A stretch of DNA of 31,594 nt from a virus: positions 1-31,594 of the IMG/VR virus record IMGVR_UViG_3300013122_000011, one strand, 5' to 3'. The translations under genes and the position numbers were made by a program. The notes beneath the pieces were generated by a model, which was not told where the DNA came from, made no database searches, and saw nothing but the letters and a program-made list of their open reading frames with translations. Positions 15,305-30,940 of the stretch are shown here, piece after piece (position 1 is the first letter of the stretch; each line of letters opens with the position of its first letter).

Positions 15305-15907
15305 TTAGACCCCGCTCCATATATTTTTTATATCCAGAATTACTAACCGGAACATAGATTTAACCTTTGGCATAACACGGGTAAATGATGGGCCAAACAC
15401 CGGGCGGGCTTTAATTGCCTTATACCCATACTCTAATACCCTGGCATACCAAGTTCCCTTCGTACCCCGTATCCTTCTCTTTATCCCATCATAGGCCCAT
15501 TGAGTAAAAGTCCTCGCAGAGTTCTTCATTAGACCGGCCAATATTATACTTGGGTTTGCTCTTGGCCGGACTACCTGCAAATTCTTGAGCACAGAGCCAG
15601 TCAGCTGCCATATAGAAAGACCAAATGCACTGGTAACTTTCCTCTTCCAATCTAAATAGGTCTGAGTAAGATGCCTTACCTTTCCTCCTTGAGTGGATAT
15701 TTTACGGGAAGAGCCTGAATAACTAATAATATTAGACATACCACGGCCAACAGTAATTGATGCCTCGACCTCCTCTATGTACATATGGCCAGCCCTTCTT
15801 AATTCGCCTCTCTCGCTGTAGACAGCAGTCTGAACCCGCTTACTTATCTGAGTGAGACGGGAGAATATCCGGTCAACATCCTTCTTCTCAAGGGATATAT
15901 CTATCAT
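15305..15907 (-). CDS. Minor tail / neck protein (gpZ or HK97 gp10-like)
   Basis: A 200-residue basic protein between the head-closure and tail-terminator genes, the lambda Z position. The N-terminus is an amphipathic helix (SLEKKDVDRIFSRLTQISKR). The middle is rich in Arg/Lys, and the C-terminal part contains KARPVFGPSFTRVMPK. An ARPF/ARPV-type motif near the C-terminus is characteristic of the HK97 gp10 / gpZ minor tail families. Role: links the tail completion complex and is needed for productive head-tail joining in lambda. It lies directly after the GT4-GT9 fusion gene with a 2-base gap, so both are on one message. Length is close to lambda gpZ (192). Confidence 0.75.
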   Translation of the reverse strand: MIDISLEKKDVDRIFSRLTQISKRVQTAVYSERGELRRAGHMYIEEVEASITVGRGMSNIISYSGSSRKISTQGGKVRHLTQTYLDWKRKVTSAFGLSIWQLTGSVLKNLQVVRPRANPSIILAGLMKNSARTFTQWAYDGIKRRIRGTKGTWYARVLEYGYKAIKARPVFGPSFTRVMPKVKSMFRLVILDIKNIWSGV

Positions 15908-15909
15908 TT

Positions 15910-17973
15910 TTATCCATTGAAACTGGCCTTAACTTCATCCAATACTTTATCATTAGAAAGCCCTCTATCGAATCCCTCAAGCATTAAATTAACTACAGGA
16001 TATATGCTCTTTGGAGAAAGGCTCTTTATACATGGAGCATCACATCCAGCTCTATTCCCCCAACATGGCCCCAGTATCGGGCAAGTCAATATATAATTTG
16101 GCTGAATGTCTACAGTCAATCCTTTAGGTTTAGTAACCCTTCTTGCCCCAGAGCCATATATGCAGATTTGAAGTTTATCAACAGCAGCGGCAAGATGTGA
16201 ACAAAAACTATCAACCCCTATATGGAAAATTCCATTCTTAACAACATATGCACTTTCCCTGTAGCTTAACTTGCCAGCTAAATTAATAGCCCCCTCTATT
16301 GGGGCATCATCTTTACCGCCAATCTGAATAAAGCTAACACCTTTGACCATGCTGATTATATCACTCATCCAAGGATAGAAGCGATAGGGGTGACCACCCT
16401 GATTGTTAAGAGTTATATACTTACCTCCAGAAATCATACCCTTTATTGACGGATTATCTATCTCCTTTTGCTCTATGTACATCTTGTCAAAATCAACATC
16501 ACAGAGCAGAGAATGCATCGCCCAGAGAGGAATATCCTGAGTCCCCCAATTACCTGTCCGTATTCTTTCATGTGGCCAATATACTTGTTTATATTGAGCC
16601 ATCAGCTCCTTATCCCATTCCAATATCTCTGATATATAACCATTCCCTACTAATATATCAGAAAACTGTTTGCTTGTCATATAGTCCATTTCCCTATTGC
16701 TGTGCTTTTCCATAATCCCCTTAAAGCACCCAGTAGTTATAAGAACATCGCCAGCAGAAGAGTGCTGAATGAAAAGAATCTTTTCTTTTCTTTTAGGAAT
16801 AACCTTCTTCTTTTCAACAATCGACTCTATTAAAGGCTGAAGTATGCCTCTTATTGATTTTTTATCACCATAGGTAAGGGCATTTAGTCTTGCATTTTCT
16901 ATGATAGAGTTAGGATATTTTTTATCAGCAATCATATTCAAATAATCCACACCCTGCTCTATATTCGCCCTCATTCTTGGGTCATGAGTAACCCCTCCTC
17001 TTTCCCACATAGGAAGAGTCAAATGACCAGAGTTACAGTCTATCAAAAACCCCTTCCCATCAGATAAAAGCTCTGTTATTGCGGTATTTTTAGAACCTAT
17101 AACAGGTAGCCCAGTCAACTGAGCTTCAATTATCGGAAAGCAAAGACCTTCTGCAAGACTGGTAATCAAGAGCGCATCTACTCCATTATACAGCTTATTA
17201 AGATTTTCCGTAGTTATCTCTAAGCTGTCTTTTTTGAATGCAACCCTATCCTTAATCCCCATCTTAATAACTGCATCTTTAAGATTAGTTCCAAACCTAT
17301 CATTTGCCTCCATATGCAAATAAAGAATTGCATCACCTCTCTTTTCTGAAAATACTTTGAATATCTCCAAAGTTCTTATTATGTCTTTTCTTATTTGGTT
17401 CTTTGCTATGACCGCAACAACAAAAAGGTCTTTACTTCCGAACAATGATTTTTTTATTTCATCTTTATCTTCCAAAGGCTTAAATACTTCAGAGTCCACA
17501 AAAGGCTTTAAGTACCGGAGCTTTGGTACATGAGGTTTGTATAATTCATATCCATGACGGCTATAAACTATAGGCAAATCTACACGGCTAAGAATTTGTA
17601 ACCAATCATCCTTAACAGAGTCAGAATCACAAGGGAAAACTTGTGCCCATTTAAACCCACTTTTTTCATGTATCAAATGTGATTGTTTATATATTTCCCA
17701 CATTCTCCATATATCATTATTAGAAAGGAATAAATCATACCCTCCACTACTCAAAAAGTTGAGCAGTTCCTGAATTCCTAATGTATCCTCTTTTGTTCCG
17801 ACAGAAATTATATTATGTATTTCATCAGATTGGAAAAGACGATTTGCATAATATGCATTATAACACAAGCAAATAATCCTATTGTCAGAAATCTGATTAA
17901 GGATTTGTTTATTGAATTTACCATTAGCTCCCTTGCCATACGGATTGTCGCCATGAAAAACTATTCTTGCCAT
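15910..17973 (-). CDS. Fused glycosyltransferase: GT4-type domain plus GT9 (heptosyltransferase-like) domain
   Basis: A 687-residue two-domain GT-B protein. Residues 1 to about 385 look like family GT4, with an EX7E signature at E275/E283 in SLAEGLCFPIIEAQLTG, the usual nucleotide-sugar binding motif. Residues about 398-687 look like GT9: ILFIQHSSAGDVLITTG at the start, IGGKDDAPIEG in the middle, and GVDSFCSHLAAA, the Asp-Ser-x-x-x-His-like-Ala motif of heptosyltransferases. Four Cys cluster near the end (CPILGPCWGNRAGCDAPC). It probably transfers two sugars in series, or uses one domain for recognition. It sits between head-closure and gpZ-like genes, with AAGGAGGTACAAAA before the ATG, so it is made with the structural proteins. 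Sampled 60-base lines here are near 35-37% GC, lower than the portal and capsid genes. Acceptor is unknown. Confidence 0.88.
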   Translation of the reverse strand: MARIVFHGDNPYGKGANGKFNKQILNQISDNRIICLCYNAYYANRLFQSDEIHNIISVGTKEDTLGIQELLNFLSSGGYDLFLSNNDIWRMWEIYKQSHLIHEKSGFKWAQVFPCDSDSVKDDWLQILSRVDLPIVYSRHGYELYKPHVPKLRYLKPFVDSEVFKPLEDKDEIKKSLFGSKDLFVVAVIAKNQIRKDIIRTLEIFKVFSEKRGDAILYLHMEANDRFGTNLKDAVIKMGIKDRVAFKKDSLEITTENLNKLYNGVDALLITSLAEGLCFPIIEAQLTGLPVIGSKNTAITELLSDGKGFLIDCNSGHLTLPMWERGGVTHDPRMRANIEQGVDYLNMIADKKYPNSIIENARLNALTYGDKKSIRGILQPLIESIVEKKKVIPKRKEKILFIQHSSAGDVLITTGCFKGIMEKHSNREMDYMTSKQFSDILVGNGYISEILEWDKELMAQYKQVYWPHERIRTGNWGTQDIPLWAMHSLLCDVDFDKMYIEQKEIDNPSIKGMISGGKYITLNNQGGHPYRFYPWMSDIISMVKGVSFIQIGGKDDAPIEGAINLAGKLSYRESAYVVKNGIFHIGVDSFCSHLAAAVDKLQICIYGSGARRVTKPKGLTVDIQPNYILTCPILGPCWGNRAGCDAPCIKSLSPKSIYPVVNLMLEGFDRGLSNDKVLDEVKASFNG

Positions 17974-17985
17974 TTTTGTACCTCC

Positions 17986-18600
17986 TTAGATTCTTGTGTC
18001 CTGTTTGGCCTGTATAATCAGGCAGCCAGGAAGGTTGACTCTATCTATTGTATCCACCTTGTATTTTTCTGAAGCAGTAGGCATCTGTATGGTATCCTCC
18101 ACCTTTACATCATAATCAGCAGAGGTATAAAACCAGCGATTATCCTCCTCTACAGAGCTTTGATTCCGAGCAACAAGCTCTATCTTTTGAGTCACAAGAC
18201 ACCCATACATAGTAGGTTCTACTATAGAGCCAGAATAGACATACTCCATAGTGTTATTATCCCTATACCCAACTACTCTGTCAAGTCTTGCTACAGCATT
18301 ACATACATATAGCATACCATAGTTATTCATTCCAGAATTCAGGAGCTGCTCTGGAACCATAGAGGCTACCAGGTAATATTCATCCGATACAGAGTTCTGT
18401 ATTATGTTGCCATTCTCAAATATTGTATCATACTTAATGGAGAACTTCCGTATGAACTGCATTATCGACTGATATTGAGAAACAGCTGGCCCATGGAACA
18501 CTACCTCTATGTCAAGGTAATCTTCTGCAGAATCGCTCAGCCTGGTGCACAGGGTTCCTATCTTACGGATGACTTTTGATATTTGGTCACCTACCGGCAT
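17986..18600 (-). CDS. Head closure / head-tail joining protein
   Basis: A 204-residue protein after the adaptor-like gene. The C-terminal half has strands resembling siphophage head-closure (stopper) proteins: DVKVEDTIQMPTASEKYKV then DTIDRVNLPGCLIIQAK, the pattern of a property value, a measured variable and a final beta strand seen in these barrels. It would close the portal channel and receive the tail. ATG 18600 overlaps the previous stop by one base (TGATG), and GAGG lies 6 bases before it. The GTG at 18603 is too near the site. It is followed directly by the GT4-GT9 gene instead of by the gpZ-like gene as in lambda. Confidence 0.65.
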   Translation of the reverse strand: MPVGDQISKVIRKIGTLCTRLSDSAEDYLDIEVVFHGPAVSQYQSIMQFIRKFSIKYDTIFENGNIIQNSVSDEYYLVASMVPEQLLNSGMNNYGMLYVCNAVARLDRVVGYRDNNTMEYVYSGSIVEPTMYGCLVTQKIELVARNQSSVEEDNRWFYTSADYDVKVEDTIQMPTASEKYKVDTIDRVNLPGCLIIQAKQDTRI

Positions 18601-19061
18601 CACTCACCTCTATTATTTATCAGAACAGAATCTTCAACCTCATAGGTCAAATCCTCTCCTGTCCTGCTGTCCTGGACAAATCCAGTACTTACGGTCTGAC
18701 CAAAAGCATCACCCTCAGTCTCAGCAGTAAGAATACCAAACTCTACAGGGTATTCCGACTTAGCCAACTCATACTCGGAATCCATCTCAGCTAACCTGTC
18801 CCGATAATTATTAACTATCTGCTGAAGTTTTGCCTTCGGAACATCAAAATTGACCAATGCAGCATCATACAGATAAGACACGATGTGTCTCTTCAACCGC
18901 TTTTTTAACCATTTTATTCGAAAAGTGTCATCTGTAGGACAGCCAAAGCTCAACTCATCGGCAGCTTCCGAATAGGCATTATCATAATCATCATCAACAA
19001 GCTCGCTTGACAATCCTTTAATTTCTTGTTGGCATTTAATTACTAACTCGCTCTGAGTCAT
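18600..19061 (-). CDS. Head-tail connector adaptor-like protein
   Basis: A 153-residue, mostly helical acidic protein, in the position of siphophage adaptor proteins that bind below the portal. Helices are seen around DDYDNAYSEAADELSFG, FRIKWLKKRLKRHIVSYLYD and KLQQIVNNYRDRLAEMDSEY; the C-terminal 45 residues look extended. I chose ATG 19061 because GAGGAG lies 7 bases upstream. The in-frame ATG at 19082 has no ribosome site and lies deeper inside the previous gene. With this start the overlap with the upstream gene is 26 bases. The C-terminus couples to the next gene by TGATG. Function is inferred from order and helical content. Confidence 0.55.
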   Translation of the reverse strand: MTQSELVIKCQQEIKGLSSELVDDDYDNAYSEAADELSFGCPTDDTFRIKWLKKRLKRHIVSYLYDAALVNFDVPKAKLQQIVNNYRDRLAEMDSEYELAKSEYPVEFGILTAETEGDAFGQTVSTGFVQDSRTGEDLTYEVEDSVLINNRGE

Positions 19062-20812: not shown

Positions 20813-21478
20813 TTATGTAACAATATCAATAAAATGAAGTTTCTGGTTGTTGTTCTTATTGAACATATCCTTCGCAATAGTCTGGCCGGCAGGAAGCCAC
20901 TGAAAGCCTTTAACTTCACTCTTTATGAATGTCCCTTCGATGTACGCTTTAGTTCCGCTATCAGATGCACTCGAAAGCTCAACATCCTCAAGTATAACAC
21001 AAGCATTCATATCAGAGAGCTGACCAGAGCAAATCCAGCCACAGTCCTCGCCACTTACCACAACAAGAAGGTCATCGCCCGTTAATCCAGTAAGAGTATT
21101 CCCAAGGGTTACAATTCCTGTCGTATTATCTACGGCAGTTACATAGCCTTGAACGCCACCAAAAACACCTGTGGTATAGTCGAAGAATGATACTCTATCC
21201 CCGACAACGAAATGGTATGAGTCGGCAGCATTCACAAGCGTAACATACTTAGTGGAAACGCTCGAAACCTCTCCCCCAAACCCATAGGGATATGCATAGT
21301 AAGGGGATACATTACCCCTAACCCAAAGCCGTGGGCCTTTTATTGACTCGGTATCTGAACCAAATCTTGTCGTATCAATTGTAACCGGGATTGCCTGAAA
21401 GTTCTCCCCAATCAGGCAATCTTTTTTCCTTCCAGCATCATAACCGAAAAAAGTCTGGCTCGGTGTATTTTCAGCCAT
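20813..21478 (-). CDS. Head decoration protein (gpD-like core with added beta domain)
   Basis: A 221-residue protein between protease/scaffold and major capsid, the lambda D position. The C-terminal segment ACVILEDVELSSASDSG followed by KAYIEGTFIKSEVKGF has the pattern of gpD-type decoration proteins (a strand, a loop with small residues, then a strand ending near a hydrophobic). Lambda gpD is 110 residues. The added length is an insert at about residues 70-140 (VTLVNAADSYHFVVGDRVSF ... LTGLTGDDLLVVV) that looks like the insert in the capsid protein. Role: binds capsid trimers after expansion and stabilises the shell. The start overlaps the protease stop by one base (TAATG), with AAAGGAGGTGATAAGTA upstream, one of the strongest sites here. 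Confidence 0.75.
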   Translation of the reverse strand: MAENTPSQTFFGYDAGRKKDCLIGENFQAIPVTIDTTRFGSDTESIKGPRLWVRGNVSPYYAYPYGFGGEVSSVSTKYVTLVNAADSYHFVVGDRVSFFDYTTGVFGGVQGYVTAVDNTTGIVTLGNTLTGLTGDDLLVVVSGEDCGWICSGQLSDMNACVILEDVELSSASDSGTKAYIEGTFIKSEVKGFQWLPAGQTIAKDMFNKNNNQKLHFIDIVT

Positions 21479-22053
21479 TACTTATCACCTCCTTTATTCT
21501 TTTTTCCGAAATACTTATTGAAAATAGTTTTGCCCAGAGCGATATCTTTCTCAATCTCGGCATTCTGTCCTGAGTTGCTGTGTCCACCACCAAGAATCTC
21601 TTTGTCATCTTCGCCATACCAGGTCTTCAGCTCCTCAGTGAAAGCTTCCCTCAAAGCCTTCTCATCCAGAACATCATCCTTGATATAGGCATCAATGTCA
21701 AACAGACTCTTAACCTTCGAGAAAAGACGAGGCTTAACCGGAGACTCGGAAAGCATCGAATCCATAATGCCTTCAGCCTTGGACTCAAGCTTATCCCCAA
21801 TCATCTTGGCAATCTTCTTGTCCTTCTCCTTGTTCTCGCTTTCGAGAACTTTAATTCTACCCTCGAACTTGCCAAGCTCTGCTCCAAGAACAACCTGAAA
21901 GGCCGACTCCTTCTCAGCCAGAGCGGCCTTGATAGCATCTGCCTTTTCCTGTTCTGTCTTTTCAGAGAGCTTTGCCCCGACTTCCTGAGTGACCTGGTCG
22001 AACATCTTCTGGTACTCATCAGGGTGCAGTTCTTTGAATTCCGCTAGTGTCAT
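21478..22053 (-). CDS. Scaffolding protein from an internal in-frame start (Nu3-like)
   Basis: A 191-residue product nested in the 3' part of the protease gene, in the same frame, equal to residues 254-444 of the long form. It starts at ATG 22053 (MTLAEFKELHPDEYQKMFDQ) right where the protease part ends and the coiled-coil part begins. The internal start has AAAGGAGGTGAACAAG before it, better than the site of the full gene. The sequence is highly charged and helical, with KVLESENKEKDKKIAKMIGD, and ends basic (FNKYFGKKNKGGDK), as scaffolds do for capsid binding. Lambda uses the same plan: Nu3 is translated from inside C. The scaffold would be made in excess over the protease fusion. The start is inferred; the SD match is seen directly. 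Confidence 0.75.
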   Translation of the reverse strand: MTLAEFKELHPDEYQKMFDQVTQEVGAKLSEKTEQEKADAIKAALAEKESAFQVVLGAELGKFEGRIKVLESENKEKDKKIAKMIGDKLESKAEGIMDSMLSESPVKPRLFSKVKSLFDIDAYIKDDVLDEKALREAFTEELKTWYGEDDKEILGGGHSNSGQNAEIEKDIALGKTIFNKYFGKKNKGGDK

Positions 22054-22812
22054 CTTGTTCACCTCCTTTAATTGATTATACAACTTTTGAGAAAAACGTT
22101 GGAAGAAGATGCCAGCATCTTCCACCGCCCCATAAGTCACCCAGTCACAAGAGTTAAAGCCAGCAATTCCTCCATATTCCTGAATGATTTCCTCTCCCTG
22201 CTTCGAGTGTTTAACCTTGTCACTGGGGATAAGGACATCAACAGAGAACTGGACGCCAGCCGGGTCTTGCTTTATGGACTCCCTCAGAGCTTGTCGTTCC
22301 TCTGTCCCGCCTAAAACCTTTATCTTTCCCACAAGGGCAAGGCTGCCCTTATGAGTGACTGTCTTTAAAGTGTCAGGATTAATTGATGCTACCCAATCTG
22401 TAGGAGGACGGGTTCCAGGCCCCATAGAAAAGAAACCCATATCATGACCAGAAAAGATTTTGAAATGACCGCTTTCCATTATGCGGTCTTTCATCTCATT
22501 TATGGCATTCTTCGTAAAACGGGTTTTATTATAAGTAGGCTTTGTGTCGGCAAGTAGGATAGGAACTTCATTGTTGTCAAAGTCAAAGTCTGCCATATCC
22601 TCTAATTTAAGAGATTCTGCTGCGCTGGTGAAGAATAAAAATCTTTCTGCTTCCACGGTTCCCTCCTTGCTATGGTATTTACGCCAATTAGTATAGCAGA
22701 TGCCTAGAATCTGGTCATGGTCCCTGTCAGGGTCTGCATTTTCCAGAGTCTCTACACATCTACTAATATAATCGTTCTTTTCCTCTCCTGACTTTGGCTT
22801 TGGAATTGGCAT
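21478..22812 (-). CDS. Prohead maturation protease fused to scaffold domain (gpC-like)
   Basis: A 444-residue protein. Residues 1-50 form a leader seen in phage protease proteins (MPIPKPKSGEEKNDYISRC, two later Cys/Trp motifs). Residues about 80-250 are the protease-like domain, with likely catalytic H123 in FSGHDMGFF and S190 in AGVQFSVDVL, the order and spacing expected of prohead serine proteases. Residues 254-444 are a charged helical scaffold, also made alone from an internal start. It would assemble inside the procapsid, cleave head proteins and itself, and leave. ATG 22812 is chosen over a TTG at 22839 because AGAAGGG lies 7 bases upstream. It is separated from the portal by the enzyme cassette, whereas lambda B and C are adjacent. 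Protease residues are assigned by eye. Confidence 0.8.
   Translation of the reverse strand: MPIPKPKSGEEKNDYISRCVETLENADPDRDHDQILGICYTNWRKYHSKEGTVEAERFLFFTSAAESLKLEDMADFDFDNNEVPILLADTKPTYNKTRFTKNAINEMKDRIMESGHFKIFSGHDMGFFSMGPGTRPPTDWVASINPDTLKTVTHKGSLALVGKIKVLGGTEERQALRESIKQDPAGVQFSVDVLIPSDKVKHSKQGEEIIQEYGGIAGFNSCDWVTYGAVEDAGIFFQRFSQKLYNQLKEVNKMTLAEFKELHPDEYQKMFDQVTQEVGAKLSEKTEQEKADAIKAALAEKESAFQVVLGAELGKFEGRIKVLESENKEKDKKIAKMIGDKLESKAEGIMDSMLSESPVKPRLFSKVKSLFDIDAYIKDDVLDEKALREAFTEELKTWYGEDDKEILGGGHSNSGQNAEIEKDIALGKTIFNKYFGKKNKGGDK
22059..22069 (-). promoter_or_regulatory. Internal Shine-Dalgarno AAAGGAGGTGA for nested scaffold
   Basis: An 11-base near-full match to the anti-SD region, 5 bases before ATG 22053 (8 bases from GGAGG), lying inside the coding sequence of the protease-scaffold gene. 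It decides the nested scaffold start. Confidence 0.8.
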
Positions 22813-22846
22813 ATATGAACCCTTCTGAAATATCAGCAAAAGTTTA

Positions 22847-23035
22847 CTATTTATGCAAACAATTTATTTTAAGGGCTGCCCCGTTCTTCAAATCATACCC
22901 GCCAAAGTATGGACAGCTCTTACACCTTACAACCTTATTATTGGTAGGGATTACCAGCTTCATTTTATCTTCATGAGACAGACTACAATCCCTAAAATCA
23001 ACCAAAACACGTATGTCGACTGGAGCTATCAGCAC
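22847..23035 (-). CDS. Small Cys protein, probable metal binder
   Basis: A 62-residue protein, GTG start at 23035. AGGAGA lies 7 bases upstream, overlapping the end of the preceding methyltransferase gene. Cys at 17, 38, 41 and 59 (VRCKSCPYF and KINCLHK) could hold a zinc ion. I do not recognise the family. It lies between the last cassette enzyme and the protease gene, so it could belong to either the cassette or the head module. A peptide substrate for the radical SAM enzymes was considered but is not supported, since there is no obvious leader/core division. Confidence 0.55.
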   Translation of the reverse strand: MLIAPVDIRVLVDFRDCSLSHEDKMKLVIPTNNKVVRCKSCPYFGGYDLKNGAALKINCLHK

Positions 23036-23046
23036 TATCCTGTCTC

Positions 23047-23688
23047 CTATATAAGCTCAAAAAACCCGTTACCATTTTTATGTTGAGACCAATTATCCTT
23101 TATTCCTTCTTTACGATAGCTGAATTCTCTGACGGTCCAACCGCAGGACTTAAATACATCCTCCCACCATATCTCTGTTTGAGCGATAATATGGGTTTTA
23201 TCCAAATCATATGCAGGGACATTATATTTCAACCCATTACCTAATGGAATAACAGCAAACATATGAGAACATCTACCCCTAAGTTCAGAAAGGGTTCTCT
23301 CTATATCTACAACATGCTCGAATACATCCTTTGCTATGCAGAGGTCGAAATGAATATCAAATGGTATTCCTAATCCATCATATAATTTTACATAATCCTT
23401 AACATCAGAGTCACAATTAGAAATTGCATACGGGCTTATATCACAACCCCACGCATCTCTCCATAACAGACGGAAAGCCTTTACCAAATATCCTTTAGCA
23501 CATCCAAAGTCTAAAATTTTACTTTGTCTACCTATACAAAGCTTATCGATGAATGCCATTGCTAATCTAATAGTAGCCTCTGGCATCCATCGATAATTAG
23601 TGTATAAAGATACCCCTGTCTCTATTCCTCGTTCAAAATAATCCTCACCGAATTCCATATCTAAGCCACTCTGTTCTGTTACATTCAT
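23047..23688 (-). CDS. Class I SAM-dependent methyltransferase (Methyltransf_11/23 type)
   Basis: A 213-residue protein with SAM-binding motif I at about 58-67 (ILDFGCAKGY), an acidic residue ending the next strand (WGCDISPYAI), and the post-I region DLCIAKDVFEHVVDIE, a common layout of small-molecule or sugar methyltransferases. FEHV is typical of the Methyltransf_11/23 families. It is the last of the seven cassette enzymes. The start is uncertain: ATG 23688 is chosen, with a TTG at 23700 and an ATG at 23658 also in frame. None has a good ribosome site, and the start region overlaps the preceding radical SAM gene in another frame, so translation is probably coupled. Substrate unknown; O-methylation of a sugar is one possibility given the glycosyltransferases nearby. 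Confidence 0.8.
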   Translation of the reverse strand: MNVTEQSGLDMEFGEDYFERGIETGVSLYTNYRWMPEATIRLAMAFIDKLCIGRQSKILDFGCAKGYLVKAFRLLWRDAWGCDISPYAISNCDSDVKDYVKLYDGLGIPFDIHFDLCIAKDVFEHVVDIERTLSELRGRCSHMFAVIPLGNGLKYNVPAYDLDKTHIIAQTEIWWEDVFKSCGWTVREFSYRKEGIKDNWSQHKNGNGFFELI

Positions 23689-24535
23689 TACATGGGGCAA
23701 TAACCTTTTCTCTCTTTGAAAAGAAAAAGCTATTAAAAAGACCCCGTATATTATTCATCTCCTTGCCTTCCCAAATCCTTACCAAATCCCCTGGCTCAAT
23801 TATTTTCCCTAATTTACAGTCACCTCTTACATCATCAGTACAGCAGATAAGAACATCTCCATTCCAGCCAACGTGTGACAGTATAAAAGGATAATCACAT
23901 ACAGAGGGGCTTAAACATCCCTCATCATAGCCATTCTTCCAAGCATATTCTGAAACCAAACCAAACCAAGGGTTAAGCTTCTCTGTTACATGGACATTAT
24001 CATGAGGTAGATACCTTCTGTACTCAGAGAAGAATTGGCCTATATCTTCTTCTGTATGATATTTATTCAATACCATATTCATATGAATATTTACTTTCTG
24101 ATTATGGCCTAAACTATCAACAATTCTTGTAAAGGCATCATCGGAAAATACCTGCCTCATGCCGGATTTATCATACATATGCTTTGTCATAGCTATTAGG
24201 ACGGTGCTACCACTTTCATTTATAGCCTTTAATAACTCATCTAAATCTCCAGGCATATAGGCACAATTAAGGAATAGCTCAAAATGCTCTATTCCTATAC
24301 TCCCCAAATACTTTACATAACCAGTAAGATGAGGATAAAACAATGGCTCTCCCAGACCATTTAGATTAAGGCCGATGTTAGGATTATAAGCAATAGCATC
24401 TTTGGCTATAATCTTTGCCAACTCGATGTCCATATGGCCTACTGGTCTTGTCATAGAAGAGCGTGGGCATTCAGCACAGTTCAAATTACATGCATTAGTT
24501 AGCTCTATTTGTACAGCGACAAGATTAGTTTCCAT
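23645..24535 (-). CDS. Radical SAM enzyme with SPASM-like C-terminus (second of two)
   Basis: A 296-residue protein. The radical SAM CX3CX2C motif is C16/C20/C23 in NACNLNCAECPRSS, binding the 4Fe-4S cluster that cleaves SAM. A GEP motif follows in LNGLGEPLFYP. The C-terminal third has a SPASM/twitch pattern: a Cys, then GWNGDVLICCTDD, GDCKLGKI, an IWEGKEMNNIRGLF segment and a final CNEC pair, for auxiliary cluster binding. This class acts on peptides, sugars or other small molecules by H-atom abstraction. The start overlaps the previous stop by one base (TAATG). No B12-binding domain is present. No precursor peptide is evident nearby. It is one of two such enzymes in this cassette, and they are only distantly alike by eye. 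Confidence 0.9.
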   Translation of the reverse strand: METNLVAVQIELTNACNLNCAECPRSSMTRPVGHMDIELAKIIAKDAIAYNPNIGLNLNGLGEPLFYPHLTGYVKYLGSIGIEHFELFLNCAYMPGDLDELLKAINESGSTVLIAMTKHMYDKSGMRQVFSDDAFTRIVDSLGHNQKVNIHMNMVLNKYHTEEDIGQFFSEYRRYLPHDNVHVTEKLNPWFGLVSEYAWKNGYDEGCLSPSVCDYPFILSHVGWNGDVLICCTDDVRGDCKLGKIIEPGDLVRIWEGKEMNNIRGLFNSFFFSKREKVIAPCNECNRTEWLRYGIR

Positions 24536-25503
24536 TATTTATCATACCCCATCCCTTCTATATGAAGTTCTTTGTAGATGTCTGCAACTATACCTCTATA
24601 CTTTTTAGGGACTGTTGACTCCCAAAGCTTATGTTCCCTATCAAGCCAAAAAGGAGAGCAGCTCTTGACGAAGTTGTCATTGACTGGATGCTTCAGATGG
24701 TCCCAAGCCCTTGTGCCGCCCCACCAATGGATAAAATAAGGGTCTGCCTTAGTCCCATAATATGTTCCTTCGGGAAGGGTATGGCCACAAGCTTGGATAT
24801 AAATATGCTCAACCGGAACTCTAGTTTCTTGCCACTCGCCCTGAAGCCTACAGTACAGCCACTGACCAGGCTCAAACCAAGCAGCCTGAGGAACGCCTCT
24901 TTCAATATACTGACGTTGTTCTGGAGTAGGATTTTTTATTCCTCTTGTCTCTGAAAAGACTCCAACAGTATCTGGTATAGAAGAATCTTGCCCAGGCTCA
25001 TCACAAGACTTATCCCCCGAAGGATGGTAAAGAACCCTGTCTTTATTTGCCCTAACTTCTTGCTGATAGTCCCAAAGCATCTTCATGCGGTACATAGTCC
25101 CAGAGGCATTTATGTTCTGATGATTCCGTCCCTCATCCCAATAGAAGCCAGCTATCCCGACTTCAGGCCTCATGAAACTAAGGAACCAGTCCAGCCAGCC
25201 ATCCTTCATTGCCATACAATCTGTTTCCATCGTGAAGAGATACTCATACTTGTCATGGACTAAATCAAGTATTTCATCAAGCCCAACAGCATGAGAATGC
25301 TTCCTCCGCACACAATCTATAATAGTCACTCCATCCCCCAGTTCTGTACCTGTTATAGCCTTTAGACTACAGTGACCTGGCCAAGAATTTGCTACATAGA
25401 TGTCGAATGGGTTTTCGTTCTTTTTACTCTTGATAGAGTAGATGCTTGTTTGTGACCACTTTGCAACATGGCCATGTGTTAGAGCTACTGCTACTTTTTT
25501 CAT
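24535..25503 (-). CDS. GT-A-type glycosyltransferase-like protein
   Basis: A 322-residue protein. It begins with a GT-A-like strand (MKKVAVALTHGH), has YLFTMETDCMAMKDGWLDW at about 88-106, where ETD is in the position of a DxD metal motif, and a C-terminal HWWGGTRAWDHLKHP region typical of Trp-rich acceptor or metal-binding ends. The family number is not clear; GT2-like is the best guess. I chose ATG 25503. GGAGG at 25510-25514 lies 6 bases before it, while the in-frame ATG at 25557 has no site and would overlap the upstream gene. Sampled lines inside it reach 58% GC, unlike the AT-rich methyltransferases next to it, so it may have a separate origin. Donor and acceptor unknown. Confidence 0.7.
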   Translation of the reverse strand: MKKVAVALTHGHVAKWSQTSIYSIKSKKNENPFDIYVANSWPGHCSLKAITGTELGDGVTIIDCVRRKHSHAVGLDEILDLVHDKYEYLFTMETDCMAMKDGWLDWFLSFMRPEVGIAGFYWDEGRNHQNINASGTMYRMKMLWDYQQEVRANKDRVLYHPSGDKSCDEPGQDSSIPDTVGVFSETRGIKNPTPEQRQYIERGVPQAAWFEPGQWLYCRLQGEWQETRVPVEHIYIQACGHTLPEGTYYGTKADPYFIHWWGGTRAWDHLKHPVNDNFVKSCSPFWLDREHKLWESTVPKKYRGIVADIYKELHIEGMGYDK

Positions 25504-25538
25504 CTCCATCCTCCGTTCTTCTTGGTTTATGATTTGGT

Positions 25539-26246
25539 CTACAAAGAAAGTATCCATACTGTACTACTTCCCTTTAATCTATATAAATCTCTATTAATAT
25601 ATTCAGAAAATCTATCAATAGAGCTAATAAGCCCTTCAAATTCTTTATTCCCTATTCTATAATCATGCCATATTATAGAATACCTATCAGACTTATTCTC
25701 CCAAGCCCACAGACTATCCTTCCACACAGAGTCTCCTGAATGGTCAGCATCTATAAAGCATAAATCGAAATTTTCCCCCAACTTAGTTTCCCAAGACTTT
25801 CCTCTAATTGATTCATATTTTATATTATTCAAGGATGCAATGTAACCTGTAGGAACTTGTAAATTACCGGGCATATATCGAAAATCCTTATCATCTACAG
25901 ATACTATGCTTGACCCTCTATTAAGCATATATAATAGAACTAAACCAATTCCAAGAGATGTGCCAAATTCAACTATATTTTTAGGCTTTATAAATTCAGA
26001 AATAAAGGTCAACTCCTGTACATAAAACCCATCATCACGATAAGGTTCTGGAACTTCAGGCTTACTCCCATACCAAGCCCTAAAAGATTCAATATCATTA
26101 AGAGCTTGCAAATTCTTGTCCTCTCCTTTGAAGCCAAGGCTTACTAAATCAAATCCTGATAACTTTAGATAAAAGTATTCTCTCCAATCATGAATACAAT
26201 CACCTAAGAAACCGGAGAAATATTCTTCACTAAGTTCCTTAACCAT
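25539..26246 (-). CDS. Rossmann methyltransferase-like protein (Methyltransf_24 type), second of tandem pair
   Basis: A 235-residue protein with SAM-binding motif I at about 91-100 (IVEFGTSLGI), an Asp at the end of strand two (IVSVDDKD), and LCFIDADHSGDSVWKD followed by SIIWHDYR. The FIDADH...D pattern is typical of Methyltransf_24 and of the related cephalosporin-hydroxylase-type O-methyltransferases such as TylF/CmcI relatives. The ATG overlaps the preceding methyltransferase stop by 8 bases with GAGG 4 bases upstream, so the two are coupled. One sampled line is 25% GC, among the lowest I counted. Sugar or polyketide O-methylation is the usual role of the family; the substrate here is unknown. 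Confidence 0.75.
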   Translation of the reverse strand: MVKELSEEYFSGFLGDCIHDWREYFYLKLSGFDLVSLGFKGEDKNLQALNDIESFRAWYGSKPEVPEPYRDDGFYVQELTFISEFIKPKNIVEFGTSLGIGLVLLYMLNRGSSIVSVDDKDFRYMPGNLQVPTGYIASLNNIKYESIRGKSWETKLGENFDLCFIDADHSGDSVWKDSLWAWENKSDRYSIIWHDYRIGNKEFEGLISSIDRFSEYINRDLYRLKGSSTVWILSL

Positions 26247-26991
26247 TCTTCCTCAGAAGACAGACCGCATCTGTCGTAGTTACCTCAACCTTATGCCAAT
26301 CTTTTTCATCATCAAGCCATTCACTTATTGCTCTTTTAACACCTCCAGGGATTTCATCAAAATTGTTCCCCTCGAATGTAGCATCATCCATAAGCAAGTA
26401 ATTCGACATTTTACTAGCTATTTCTAGTTCCATCAATGTATGAGCATATGAGTGTATTGTATCTATAAAAATCATATCAAAGCGGGAATTTATCGAATTA
26501 AGAAACTCTATGCTGTCAGATTGAACAAACTTCCAAAAACTATACTTCCCATACCTGTTAGCTGTTCCTGATAGAGGGTTCCTATCAACTGACAAAAGGC
26601 TGCCATTATGCTTTTCACACCAACAAAGAAATATACTTGTACTTATGGCAGAATCTCCTCCAACGCCAAGCTCCAATATATTTCTCGGCATACCACAGAA
26701 GCTAATAGCTCTCTCATAATCATGAGCAATTGGCACTCTTAAAAGATTTATAATTCGATGAACCTCCAACTCACTGTCAAATTCTTTTCCAACCATACCC
26801 AAGGCAATTGGAACAATCTGGTTAGTATTCACCTGATACTCTGAAAGATGTTTCCAGTTCGACCACTCGTCCAATTCTCCTGGAAGTACATTTTGACCAT
26901 ACTTTAATAGCCAATCCCTTGTTGAATCTTTTTGCCCTGGATTTGTGCTTCCATAATACTCAAAAAGCCACTCCCTTGTAAGCTTAAACAT
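26239..26991 (-). CDS. Rossmann methyltransferase-like protein (Methyltransf_24 type), first of tandem pair
   Basis: A 250-residue protein of the same superfamily as its downstream neighbour. Motif I is ILELGVGGDS at about 105-114. It then has LLSVDRNPL, MIFIDTIHSYAHTLMELE and YLLMDDATFEG. The acidic DD after the last strand fits a metal-assisted O-methyltransferase. The N-terminal 95 residues are unrelated to those of the neighbour by eye, so the pair is not a simple recent duplication. A good site (GGAGG, 5-base spacer) precedes ATG 26991. A sampled line is 28% GC, well below the portal. It begins 14 bases after the radical SAM gene stop. Confidence 0.78.
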   Translation of the reverse strand: MFKLTREWLFEYYGSTNPGQKDSTRDWLLKYGQNVLPGELDEWSNWKHLSEYQVNTNQIVPIALGMVGKEFDSELEVHRIINLLRVPIAHDYERAISFCGMPRNILELGVGGDSAISTSIFLCWCEKHNGSLLSVDRNPLSGTANRYGKYSFWKFVQSDSIEFLNSINSRFDMIFIDTIHSYAHTLMELEIASKMSNYLLMDDATFEGNNFDEIPGGVKRAISEWLDDEKDWHKVEVTTTDAVCLLRKNG

Positions 26992-27005
26992 ATCATCCTC
27001 CGATG

Positions 27006-27944
27006 TTATATAAAATCTTCATGTTTTCCGGATTCAATTAAACTACCAATAATCTCATTCTGACCGGCGAATACGCAATGATTACACATATTGGTATCCA
27101 CTAAAGATTCTCTCTTGGAATACATATCCTCTAATTGAGTCCAATGATATATCCTATATTTCTCATTAAACTTCTTCCCAGCATCATCATTCAAAACCGT
27201 GCTGCTACAAGGGAATATATATCCATCACAATAGAGGAATGGCTTATAATATCCCCAATAACAATTACTTGGTCTTTTAAACTGCTTCTTCTGATAGAAC
27301 AAAGGTTGGCCAATCCTCTCCACAATCGGCTCAATTTTATTATGCTGGACTTCTAAATCTTCCGATGAGCAGCAGCAATTAGGAACCACACGCACATAAT
27401 CAGCACCATTCTCTCTGGCCATTCGAGCTATCCTCTCCAGAGTCTCTATGCTTGAGTCTGGTCCATAGCAGTAGCTATAGCCTAAAGTACCTCGTATCTT
27501 AGGTATTACAACCGAATCACAATAATCCAGACTGTTGAGAGACACCCGTATCCAGTCGAATTTATCCAGAATAGTATTCGAATAGTCTCCCATCATCGTC
27601 CCGTTGGTAATCAAGCCCAACCGGATTTGAGCATAATACTTGGAAAGCCACTTCACATACTCATCAAAATTAACATACATCAACGGCTCTCCCCCACCAG
27701 TTATCTCGATTGTATTTATCCCTTGTTTTATGAATGCTGTAGTAGCATCAATTAATTCATTGAATCCAAATTCATACTTCTTCTCCCGATTGGCAACACT
27801 ACAGAAAGAACACTTCAGGTTACACTTCTCGGTTAAGGCCAACTGAAGAGAAATAGGACGGGGATAGAGCAGTAAGGATGAGTCTTTAATGCATTTTTTG
27901 ATAAACTTTGAGCCTGTGCTAGTATAGGTGTTTGTATATTCCAT
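27006..27944 (-). CDS. Radical SAM enzyme with SPASM/twitch-like C-terminus (first of two)
   Basis: A 312-residue protein. CX3CX2C is C41/C45/C48 in TEKCNLKCSFCSVA, and the SAM-binding GGGEP motif is at 83-87 (IEITGGGEPLMY). The C-terminal region has a Cys cluster NCYWGYYKPFLYCDGYIFPC and a final CNHC, a twitch/SPASM-type set for an auxiliary cluster. The sequence between (LGLITNGTMM, IRVSLNS) matches the radical SAM barrel strands. These enzymes usually act on peptides or small molecules. AAGGA lies 5 bases before ATG 27944, 10 bases after the GT2 stop. Its GC is mixed (about 40 to 53% in sampled lines). The substrate cannot be told from sequence. Confidence 0.9.
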   Translation of the reverse strand: MEYTNTYTSTGSKFIKKCIKDSSLLLYPRPISLQLALTEKCNLKCSFCSVANREKKYEFGFNELIDATTAFIKQGINTIEITGGGEPLMYVNFDEYVKWLSKYYAQIRLGLITNGTMMGDYSNTILDKFDWIRVSLNSLDYCDSVVIPKIRGTLGYSYCYGPDSSIETLERIARMARENGADYVRVVPNCCCSSEDLEVQHNKIEPIVERIGQPLFYQKKQFKRPSNCYWGYYKPFLYCDGYIFPCSSTVLNDDAGKKFNEKYRIYHWTQLEDMYSKRESLVDTNMCNHCVFAGQNEIIGSLIESGKHEDFI

Positions 27945-27954
27945 ATATATCCTT

Positions 27955-28725
27955 CTACTTGTCTAAATATTCCTTATAATTAATCATGGCAACACCAGCA
28001 GCACGCTCTTTCTCATAGGTGTCCCAAATCTCTTTATTCTCTTTATCCTTTTCCCAAAGACCCTGGCAAAGGTTTGCAATTTGACTTTTCCTCTCATTGC
28101 TTTTCATCCACCCGAAGTGCCTTATAACAGGATTATCAATATTCATACTAATCCCTATTTTAACATCTGGCCTCCGGTCAACTATCTCATGAACCCGTCT
28201 ATAGAATTGAATTTTGCTCTTCCCGTCAGGCAGCATGACCCTTTTTAAAAGCCTTGGCTGCCAATCGGGATTTATATTCAAAGCCTCTCTCCAATTGCTT
28301 CCAACATTTTCCATACTCCCATACTCAACTTTAGTCTCCTCCCAATCCTGGTAGTGACATCTTGGAAGTGCTATTAGAAGAATTTCTTCATCAGGATTCT
28401 TTTCACACTCATCAATAACTGAGCGTATCCTTTTGGCATCCTCTCTCCACATACGCTCATCTCCATCTATTATCAAGACCCAATCCATACCCTCGGAAAG
28501 TTCTATGAGCTTTGTACGGGAGTACCCATATCCATCAATCCTTATCATCTTAGACTCTATCAAGTTAAGTTTATCCCCAACCACTTCCCTCAACTTTTCT
28601 ATAGTCCCATCAGTACTCCCGCTGTCTACAACTGTCCACATATCTACAACATCTTTGAATATGTCCCAAATAGGTTTTATATTCAATACCTCATCTTCAA
28701 AATTACTCGCAAGCCCTAGTTTCAT
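27955..28725 (-). CDS. GT2-family glycosyltransferase
   Basis: A 256-residue protein with GT2 features: VVDSGSTDGT at about 32-41 (nucleotide-binding loop), WVLIIDGDERMW at about 82-93 (the DxD metal motif, D87/D89), and QFYRRVHEIVDRRPD further on, where a conserved HE is seen in bacterial GT2 enzymes of the lipooligosaccharide-type group. It transfers a sugar from a nucleotide donor to an unknown acceptor. ATG 28725 is chosen over ATG 28731: GGAGG is 7 bases before the first but only 1 base before the second. It is the first cassette gene, directly after the portal, and no promoter is evident between them, so it is probably on the portal message. Confidence 0.88.
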   Translation of the reverse strand: MKLGLASNFEDEVLNIKPIWDIFKDVVDMWTVVDSGSTDGTIEKLREVVGDKLNLIESKMIRIDGYGYSRTKLIELSEGMDWVLIIDGDERMWREDAKRIRSVIDECEKNPDEEILLIALPRCHYQDWEETKVEYGSMENVGSNWREALNINPDWQPRLLKRVMLPDGKSKIQFYRRVHEIVDRRPDVKIGISMNIDNPVIRHFGWMKSNERKSQIANLCQGLWEKDKENKEIWDTYEKERAAGVAMINYKEYLDK

Positions 28726-28748: not shown

Positions 28749-30434
28749 CTACTCTTGAGGTTTTGGTTTTGGCTCAGTAGGCTTCTTGTCCTGTGGCTGA
28801 GCGCCGGCATTTCCCTCTACATTCTCATCCACTTTCACATACTCCTCAGGGTATCTCTCCTCTTCCGTAGCCCTGTAAAGTAACTGATTGTGATAATCTC
28901 CAATCCCCAACTTATCGGCAGTAAGAGACTTTGGAGTGCCGAGATGGTAAGTGAGGCTCCCCCGCTTGCTGCCAAGAGATGCATTCGCAACATTCAGCAT
29001 ATCCACCTCAGCCGACATAGGAAAAGAAACCTTTATGAGAGATTCTGGACGCTTCACGACATCTCTAAATTTAGGCTTCTTTGCCTTAAACTCTACTGCC
29101 TCCCTGACCGTCATATCCACAAAGTACCTATCAAAGCACCCTTTGGTAAAGAATATAAACTTCCAAAAGTCATTGATAAAGAAATTCCTTGCCATATCCC
29201 GAACATCCGATATGAAATCCAGATACGGTGTGCGGCTTCCCTTTACACTGGCATATGTTGGGCCTTTTATATCGCTGGAAGTTATATCATACGGTTGCCT
29301 CAACCCGCCACTTATCCACTTCAGGAAGTCCTCATCCTCTCCCGACAGACGAGGCAGATTTGGGTTAAGAAGTAATGGCTTCACACCAGGAGGGCAGAAC
29401 AAGCGGTCTGCTGGACGGAGGGGCTGGGCCAAACCTGTCTCCTTTTTCTTTTCCTCCGGAAGGGCCAGCCACCGAACCCATGTCTTTTGGTCTTCAAACT
29501 GGTAGAAGATAAAGAAGGAAGATATGGCCTTCATGTACTCAAACCTCCACTCCTTTGCCTCCTTATAGTCCTCTATCGGCTCAAACACAGTACGGAGACT
29601 GCTCACATACCTATCCATCTCCTTAACACCAAAGCGCCAGTTCAGAACATAACTCCTGTATAAAAGCTTATTTCTGGACTTTTTCTTAACATCCGGGTTT
29701 TGCTCGACATCTTTAGGGTCAAACCCTTTAGTCTGGTCATATTCAAGCGCAAGCTTTGGCAAGTACCCCACATACACACTCGGATAGAACACATATCCAG
29801 AACCCTTAGCAGCTTCCTTCGGGTCTGTCCGAACCTTGAAAAAGAGGGGGAGGTTATTCTTACGCTTATGGGCTATTATATCCTCAACCATTCCTGGCTC
29901 TATAATATCAACCTCGACAAAGCCGTCATCTTCATGAACTGTGAGCTTGAGGAAAAGCTCTGACTCAACCAGCTTTCGTGTTACAAATCCCGATATGGAA
30001 GAATACAGCTCATTCCTCACATCATATACAATCCTATCTATCCACCGATTTATTTTCCAGTTCTCGCTATAGAACTGGAATCCTTCTCCGGTTATCCTCC
30101 CAACTATCCGCTCTATGGAAGTCCGTACAAATGCATCCTTTATGTACTTATCCCAAGCCGTAGCATTGATAGTTGCCCTGTCCCACTTGGACTCTTCCTT
30201 TGACCTTGCCTGGTACCCGTAGAATGCTTGAGGGATGACGTAGCTGGTAGGGGAGTTCTTAATAGTAGAGTCATAATTTGGGCTCCATGCTGCTGATTGA
30301 ATAACATTCACAACACCGCCCTTCCCTAAATGGTTAAGAACTTTCTCTGCAGTCCTATTATTGATATCATCATATTTAACCATTAAAGGAGGTATTTTAG
30401 CCATTTTAGCCGGAGTTTTCACTGGTTTTCTCAT
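28749..30434 (-). CDS. Portal protein
   Basis: A 561-residue protein with the outline of a siphophage portal: a N-terminal clip/wing part, a long helical and beta middle (VTRKLVESELFLKLTVHEDD, YKEAKEWRFEYMKAISSFF), a region LPRLSGEDEDFLKWISGGL, and a disordered Pro/Lys/Glu-rich tail (KKPTEPKPKPQE). It forms the dodecameric DNA channel at the head vertex. It lies upstream of protease, scaffold and capsid genes as in lambda, but with the enzyme cassette in between. ATG 30434 is preferred to ATG 30446: GGAGG (30440-30444) lies 5 bases before it. Sampled lines run 52-60% GC, above the cassette methyltransferases. Confidence 0.88.
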   Translation of the reverse strand: MRKPVKTPAKMAKIPPLMVKYDDINNRTAEKVLNHLGKGGVVNVIQSAAWSPNYDSTIKNSPTSYVIPQAFYGYQARSKEESKWDRATINATAWDKYIKDAFVRTSIERIVGRITGEGFQFYSENWKINRWIDRIVYDVRNELYSSISGFVTRKLVESELFLKLTVHEDDGFVEVDIIEPGMVEDIIAHKRKNNLPLFFKVRTDPKEAAKGSGYVFYPSVYVGYLPKLALEYDQTKGFDPKDVEQNPDVKKKSRNKLLYRSYVLNWRFGVKEMDRYVSSLRTVFEPIEDYKEAKEWRFEYMKAISSFFIFYQFEDQKTWVRWLALPEEKKKETGLAQPLRPADRLFCPPGVKPLLLNPNLPRLSGEDEDFLKWISGGLRQPYDITSSDIKGPTYASVKGSRTPYLDFISDVRDMARNFFINDFWKFIFFTKGCFDRYFVDMTVREAVEFKAKKPKFRDVVKRPESLIKVSFPMSAEVDMLNVANASLGSKRGSLTYHLGTPKSLTADKLGIGDYHNQLLYRATEEERYPEEYVKVDENVEGNAGAQPQDKKPTEPKPKPQE

Positions 30435-30448
30435 TTTTCCCTCCATTT

Positions 30449-30940
30449 TTACTTAAAATTTGATAATTTGTACTTCTGCTTTCTTAAGGACTGTTTACTA
30501 CTTTTGAAAGTACGCAGCCTCCTGTAGGCTACATTGAAATGCTTAGCCAGACACTTTATCCCCCTCAACCTTAAAACCTTTACCGTTATCGGCCTGATGT
30601 TAAGCATATAGGATATTTCATTTATATCCAGTCCATCCAAATAGAAAAGCTTGACACACTCCCACTGCCTCTTAGGCATCTTTACATTTTTAAGATTTTC
30701 AATATACTCTAAAGGCTGACAGGCGGGAGGGGTGCTTTCATACGGCAGCACATCATACAGTTTATCCTCGTTCCATTTATTCTCAACACTTCCTCTGCCT
30801 TTAATGCGGGAGAAAAAGAAAATCGAGTAGTCATCAATCCTGAGCTCCTTCAGGCCTACATAATCCTGGTTAACATACTCCTCTGCCTTAAGGCAAAGAG
30901 TCTTACATGTAAATCTCTCATCACACATCCGGCACAGCAT
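30449..30940 (-). CDS. Sigma-region-4-like helix-turn-helix protein with N-terminal Cys cluster
   Basis: A 163-residue protein. Residues about 88-134 (PKRQWECVKLFYLDGLDINE, then ISYMLNIRPITVKVLRLRG) match the sigma-70 region 4 / LuxR-type DNA-binding helix-turn-helix. The N-terminus has Cys 3, 6, 12 and 16 (LCRMCDERFTCKTLCL), which could bind zinc. It has no region 2, so it is not a full sigma factor. It may be a DNA-binding regulator of the late operon or a packaging-associated recognition protein. It starts 3 bases after the previous gene stop and ends 14 bases before the portal start, so it is transcribed with the virion genes. Confidence 0.65.
   Translation of the reverse strand: MLCRMCDERFTCKTLCLKAEEYVNQDYVGLKELRIDDYSIFFFSRIKGRGSVENKWNEDKLYDVLPYESTPPACQPLEYIENLKNVKMPKRQWECVKLFYLDGLDINEISYMLNIRPITVKVLRLRGIKCLAKHFNVAYRRLRTFKSSKQSLRKQKYKLSNFK

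Follow-up and report, generated by a model that had tools for sequence, protein, structure and literature searches.

A candidate virion-glycosylation island divided between two late-operon slots in an uncultivated lineage of tailed phages

The window analysed here is the entire IMG/VR virus record IMGVR_UViG_3300013122_000011 (31,594 bases), probably a fragment. Between its portal gene (28749–30446) and its head protease gene (21478–22812/22839) lies a cassette of eight minus-strand open reading frames (ORFs), neighbours overlapping or standing apart by anything from a few bases to a few tens, in the order GT2-family glycosyltransferase (GT), radical SAM enzyme, two Methyltransf_24 methyltransferases, GT-A-fold GT, radical SAM/SPASM enzyme, class I methyltransferase and a 62-residue Cys ORF. 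An eighth enzyme, the double glycosyltransferase GTx2, is found at the head–neck junction, with h3 on one side and a Neck1-like gene on the other. With moderate confidence, we read these genes as a modular virion-glycosylation island of an uncultivated tailed-phage lineage, which in this window is shared out between two late-operon slots. Observed directly are the enzymes and their families, encoded in the same direction as the head and tail genes and packed together with them; the island's place in the structural operon is seen to be conserved and its content to vary, and multi-spanning membrane proteins are lacking. The enzymes and the small ORF are as follows, with labels such as L004 denoting contigs of relatives.

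27955–28725, minus strand: GT2-family glycosyltransferase; PF13704/PF00535 below cut-off; the ORF extends to 28731.
27006–27944, minus strand: radical SAM enzyme 1; PF04055 at 5e-13; SPASM/twitch-like C-terminal part with auxiliary-cluster cysteines.
26239–26991, minus strand: methyltransferase 1 (Methyltransf_24); PF13578 at 2e-7; 50–57% identical in L004 and L015/L027.
25539–26246, minus strand: methyltransferase 2 (Methyltransf_24); PF13578 at 4e-6; 47% identical in L003.
24535–25557, minus strand: GT-A-fold glycosyltransferase; without a Pfam family, AlphaFold fold match; 60% identical in L004 and L015/L027.
23645–24535, minus strand: radical SAM/SPASM enzyme 2; PF13186 at 3.5e-9, PF04055 at 1e-8.
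23047–23700, minus strand: class I methyltransferase 3; Methyltransf_11/23 (PF08241/PF13489); PHROG 27380 at 5e-29; partner of radical SAM 1.
22847–23035, minus strand: putative 62-residue Cys ORF (CxxC); GTG start; directly downstream of methyltransferase 3.
15910–17973, minus strand: double glycosyltransferase GTx2, 687 residues; GT4 (PF00534 at 8e-10) plus GT9 heptosyltransferase-like (PF01075 at 1e-7).

A first-pass annotation of this DNA had described seven enzyme genes and a small Cys ORF in a tight co-directional row from portal to protease, and the ORFs, the domain searches and the intact catalytic motifs bear this out. Its cassette end at 28725 agrees with the better start of the GT2 gene, which has GGGAGG 7 nt upstream, and its “lambda-like” order is a fair description of the succession terminase, portal, protease, decoration position and major capsid protein (MCP). 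It erred in taking the seven enzymes for the entire set, overlooking GTx2 and with it the division of the set between two sites. A chance assembly of domain-like ORFs is ruled out, since both the gene order and the protein families are kept in other phages.

Four structural genes border the cassette and the usual island site of the lineage. The portal and protease owe their names in the window mainly to relatives that match named families: the L028 portal homologue matches PF05136 at 3e-6 as well as a PHROG portal, and the L028 protease matches PHROG 3244 (head maturation protease) at 6e-17.

28749–30446, minus strand: portal protein, the upstream border; PF05136 weak in the window.
21478–22812, minus strand: head maturation protease/scaffold, the downstream border; probable ATG start at 22812; homologous to the L028 protease.
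17986–18603, minus strand: h3, at the head-completion position; PHROG 37539 and synteny; borders the usual island site.
15305–15907, minus strand: neck/tail-completion protein; PHROG 5 (tail completion/Neck1) at 5e-5; the other border of the usual site.

To gather relatives, five proteins served as queries (the portal, the double GT, the GT-A protein, radical SAM 1 and methyltransferase 1), and the genes of the contigs found were mapped with hidden Markov models. These relatives form one large lineage of uncultivated tailed phages with the order terminase–portal–protease–x–MCP–x–h2–h3–(island)–neck–h4–h5–tail–tape measure; in its usual layout the enzyme island sits at the head–neck junction, and portal and protease are adjacent. 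The island starts with the double GT, usually followed by the GT2, and runs for 1–19 ORFs or 1–12 kb up to h4 (35 contigs). In 75 of the 76 contigs bearing h3, the double GT comes next; because this gene itself helped to find the contigs, the figure is of no use as a frequency. Among the contigs found by the portal, which were not selected for an island but are the best 80 of 370 hits, with fractions skewed to one part of the lineage, the double GT follows h3 in 19 of 24 decidable cases, the site is empty in 5 of 24, and portal and protease are less than 200 nt apart in 53 of 60.

Both slots (portal/protease and h3/neck) thus occur in empty versions, and an island at either displaces no other gene. 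In the window and in L110 the double GT is at h3/neck, and the GT2, radical SAM 1 and methyltransferase 3, plus others, are at portal/protease, methyltransferase 3 directly adjoining the protease in L110. Radical SAM 1 and methyltransferase 3 come immediately after the portal in L022 and L011, the L022 record being without a double GT at h3, and L254 has a GT2–methyltransferase fusion and another methyltransferase in the portal/protease interval. On the portal tree, portal-side enzymes appear in three separate places (the window and L110; L022/L011/L260/L037/L231; and L254), the contigs L011, L260, L037 and L231 ending upstream of any protease. The tree has a midpoint root and its default site label was checked for part of the rows only, which leaves the direction of slot change unsettled. 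In 33 of 35 contigs the island is lower in G+C than the structural genes, which would be expected after gene exchange, although a high A+T content is common among sugar genes in any case. Two contigs of the lineage, L181 and L182, are binned in an alphaproteobacterial metagenome-assembled genome (MAG) and a Melioribacter MAG; this is the sole hint of a host, and the binning may be wrong.

No fixed set of seven is conserved across the relatives. Alongside the double GT, the recurrent genes are the GT2, radical SAM 1 and methyltransferase 3, which recur most among the seven, and the rest come and go: methyltransferases 1 and 2, the GT-A protein, radical SAM 2 and a B12-binding radical SAM protein, as well as a short DegT aminotransferase, WbqC, a hexapeptide transferase, GNAT, PfkB and an RMNT_CmcI-like methyltransferase. 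Between the window and L110 the GT2, radical SAM 1 and methyltransferase 3 are 50–58% identical and the MCP 49%, so these enzymes are kept as well as the MCP. The L110 homologue of the GT2, at 58% identity, scores above the PF00535 cut-off and forms a single protein with a methyltransferase, and in L254 the GT2 is fused to a rhamnosyl O-methyltransferase/CmcI domain (3e-30), fusions that tie methylation to glycosyl transfer. The B12-binding radical SAM protein, recognised by Pfam in L022 (7014–9224) and with homologues in L003 (18887–19999) and L029 (1726–3003), lies inside the relatives' islands and possibly carries out further radical steps on the glycan. Short DegT-type aminotransferase-like proteins of 207–215 residues, about half the usual length, are encoded in L003 (16939–17586), L028 (1865–2488) and L231 (4638–5279), those of L003 and L028 being 66% identical.

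None of the 418 island ORFs has at least two hydrophobic segments, against 32 of the 1340 other ORFs, and a test for a lipid-linked O-antigen or capsule locus found no multi-spanning polymerase, flippase or phosphoglycosyltransferase among the 418. This rules out an O-antigen locus with export. The product would thus be made by soluble enzymes, which suits an acceptor in the cytoplasm, for instance a protein of the virion, the core of lipopolysaccharide (LPS) still being compatible.

A precedent for the portal/protease slot is provided by the cluster O mycobacteriophages (Corndogvirus: Firecracker, Corndog). Firecracker encodes, in succession, portal gp32, O-methyltransferase gp33, gp34, GalNAc-T-like gp35, GT gp36, protease gp37 and the capsid, and has in common with the window the slot, a Methyltransf_24-type methyltransferase, several GTs and the late operon; like a Corndog-type cassette, the window carries GTs and a methyltransferase from portal to capsid protease. 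The Firecracker slot lacks the radical SAM enzymes and the GT4–GT9 double enzyme, and the phage lineage and hosts differ. The results of Freeman 2023 are taken here from papers citing it (PMC11600133, PMC12363180, PMC11256854, PMC13313380). According to these, capsid and tail tube are the targets of the cluster O O-methyltransferase and of the three GTs that follow it in tandem (PMC11600133), and glycosylation of the capsid requires gp38 in Corndog and gp110 in Che8 (PMC12363180; also PMC11256854). Synechococcus phage S-CBS4 likewise has a GT4, a GT2 and a methyltransferase (GT–GT–methyltransferase) between portal and head maturation protease, but this block comprises three enzymes, none annotated as radical SAM, and its function is putative. 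The first-pass annotation had thought the combination at this site unfamiliar: the slot itself is precedented in Firecracker and S-CBS4, if a minority arrangement in the lineage.

Turning to the enzymes, the structures in the PDB nearest to the GT2 profile are the flagellin glycosyltransferase GmaR (4e-8) and the peptide glycosyltransferase SunS (5e-7), both of which act on protein or peptide and are distant from it; against the SunS family (TIGR04195) the GT2 scores 20.9 bits in the window and 29.7 in L110, far under the cut-off of 350. The “GT-A-like” call for 24535–25557 proved right. Its AlphaFold model (pLDDT 82.6) matches SpsA, 6p61, TarP and hyaluronan synthase with Z of 13–15 across about 170–200 residues, and an acidic metal-binding motif (ExD, E111-x-D113) is invariant; by this predicted structure, the protein belongs to the GT-A fold with an acidic motif. 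The GT-A protein, the portal, the GT2 and the MCP had no match in 50,697 phage records; the GT-A profile had none in contigs of 84,980 species, and none in 398 Pseudomonadota genomes in a search without a positive control. In GTx2, a C-terminal cluster of cysteines (C631, C637, C644, C648) is invariant in five homologues and is possibly a metal-binding finger. A TibC-like protein heptosyltransferase role for the GT9 domain is unsupported, TibC being absent among the PDB matches listed.

Radical SAM 1 belongs to the radical SAM superfamily, with an auxiliary cluster of the SPASM/twitch type: CxxxCxxC (C41/45/48) and the auxiliary C228/246/287/290 are invariant in 37 homologues. Its model (pLDDT 92.6) reaches Z of 17–19 to SkfB, DesII, SuiB and BlsE, while all NCBIfam scores against named enzymes (SkfB/SuiB, DesII, BlsE, viperin) are far under their cut-offs, and folds of different functions score alike. 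Methyltransferase 3 probably begins inside its ORF, at the Met of residue 5 or of residue 15. Searched for in the same 50,697 phage records, it and radical SAM 1 each match three only, which are shared by both and hold the two genes side by side: two entries of Pelagibacter phage HTVC008M, and Synechococcus phage SynMITS9220M01. These homologues are 25–26% (radical SAM 1) and 34–39% (methyltransferase 3) identical, but the phages are T4-like and carry the pair in nucleotide-sugar/heptose regions. Of 30 contigs of the lineage, several of them cut off by the contig end, 9 have methyltransferase 3 as the next gene downstream of radical SAM 1 and 18 have it at most 10 genes away. This co-occurrence, seen also where the neighbours are heptose, nucleotide-sugar and GT genes, suggests that the two enzymes carry out linked steps on a sugar. 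Among the 398 Pseudomonadota genomes, radical SAM 1 had one match, the phage contig itself in one MAG. In L004 (6616–8430) the methyltransferase 3 homologue is broken by an intein-like insertion of about 380 residues, and the same island holds homing-endonuclease-like ORFs (AP2/HNH-type by eye) at 1466–2032 and 3536–4189.

The mixed affinities of radical SAM 1 raise the alternative that maturation of a protein or peptide is the task of the radical SAM/SPASM enzymes: they would introduce a crosslink, thioether or epimerisation into a virion protein or the product of the small Cys ORF, and the GTs would supply sugars, as in ribosomally synthesised and post-translationally modified peptides (RiPPs). 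SkfB and SuiB among the top folds, the SPASM domain of radical SAM 2, the SunS-like GT2 and the 62-residue Cys ORF directly downstream all speak for it. That ORF, however, matches no Pfam or PHROG family and has no homologue among the 3607 ORFs of the relatives, including those keeping radical SAM 1 and methyltransferase 3, such as L110; a RiPP locus built on the Cys ORF is ruled out because it is not conserved. The cassette, moreover, has no visible peptidase or exporter, and the sugar-enzyme folds (DesII, BlsE) score about equally. Taken together, we consider peptide maturation improbable.

The first-pass annotation had seen a cassette that builds and methylates a glycan, read with the structural genes, and both the enzyme families and the layout support this. 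It had offered two roles, of which virion glycosylation is the better supported; modification of the host surface stays the main rival. According to the latter, LPS core or O-antigen at the host surface is what the enzymes alter late in infection, which would block superinfection or release progeny from debris, and late transcription is a matter of convenient timing only. The GT9 heptosyltransferase-like domain and the LPS-type GT families agree with this, as does the pair's setting among heptose/nucleotide-sugar genes in SynMITS9220M01 and beside a carbamoyltransferase and UDP-glucose dehydrogenase in HTVC008M; the lack of membrane proteins is no obstacle, because LPS core GTs are peripheral. 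Yet throughout the lineage the island occurs only in two slots amid head/neck genes, it encodes no polymerase, flippase or acetyltransferase of the multi-spanning kind, and the cluster O precedent in the same slot concerns virion proteins. Host-surface modification thus appears to us unlikely, but considerably less so than peptide maturation.

Virion glycosylation is supported by the slots amid head/neck or portal/protease genes, by the analogy with cluster O, by the sugar-enzyme chemistry, by the affinity of the GT2 profile to enzymes that act on protein or peptide, by the lack of multi-spanning proteins and by the MCP-like conservation of the GT2, radical SAM 1 and methyltransferase 3 between the window and L110. 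Several points weigh against it. Radical SAM 1 and methyltransferase 3 stand away from structural genes in HTVC008M and SynMITS9220M01, among sugar-nucleotide/heptose genes; the separation from the structural operon that the first-pass annotation named as refuting its view is absent from the lineage but occurs for this pair in T4-like phages. The GT/radical SAM cassettes of pelagimyophages have been interpreted as host O-chain modification (PMC7029224), a published interpretation that also favours the host-surface rival. The GmaR and SunS matches are weak and possibly mirror which GT2 structures have been solved, and the nearest solved folds of radical SAM 1 mix peptide maturases (SkfB, SuiB) with sugar/nucleoside enzymes (DesII, BlsE, BtrN) at similar Z. 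Finally, no sequence relation to the Firecracker GTs was detected (hhalign below 1% for the GT2 profile with gp35 and gp36 and for the GT-A profile with gp34 and gp36; the targets were single sequences, and remote kinship is possible). The system of the window therefore works like cluster O by slot and enzyme class, rather than as a shown family member.

If virion glycosylation is correct, the soluble GTx2, GT2 and GT-A enzymes would draw on host nucleotide sugars late in infection and equip a capsid, decoration or tail-tube protein of the virion with a short glycan; of the three, the GT2 is the likeliest to make the link to the protein. The methyltransferases would O-methylate sugars, and radical chemistry by radical SAM 1 and its partner methyltransferase 3, as well as by radical SAM 2, may alter one residue, which could for example be deoxygenated, epimerised or dehydrogenated and then methylated. 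As an outer coat of the particle that changes fast, the glycan could then affect adsorption or stability or conceal the phage from ligands, in keeping with the variable enzyme set. A wider version, in which the coat is swappable throughout the lineage, virus-specific radical SAM enzymes and a partner methyltransferase make a sugar otherwise unknown on virus particles, and the same island occupies either or both slots, is put forward tentatively. In other phages, GTs and radical SAM enzymes work in DNA modification, and here, too, GTs and methyltransferases might decorate phage DNA bases. The cassette, however, matches no base-modification enzymes, PHROG matches included, and GT2, GT4 and GT9 differ from DNA glucosyltransferases, making DNA hypermodification extremely improbable.

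To our knowledge, phage virion glycosylation is established for a few mycobacteriophages only. Comparison of the relatives suggests that a far larger group of environmental phages carries glycan islands which are diverse, exchangeable and built into the structural operon, and that radical SAM chemistry takes part in making the glycan. What is new is the lineage-wide, modular, two-slot island and the radical SAM/methyltransferase pair, the slot being less novel than first held. With genes, slots and empty-site relatives now listed, the question of made-to-order phage sugar coats becomes testable, and the phage-borne pair is a candidate for substrate discovery.

Outside the island, no tRNA was found in the window, and no promoter- or terminator-like sites rose above chance level. 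The proteases of the window (21478–22839) and L110 (5003–6433) differ in their N-terminal domains (S49 in L110, another type in the window) and align in their C-terminal scaffold-like halves, indicating a domain swap between the two closest relatives. The protein at the decoration position (20813–21478) is common to the window and L110 only, other relatives having a different protein there. In the terminase/portal interval, 30449–30940 encodes a Sigma-70 region 4-like protein (PF08281 just at the cut-off), present in the window only among the mapped contigs.

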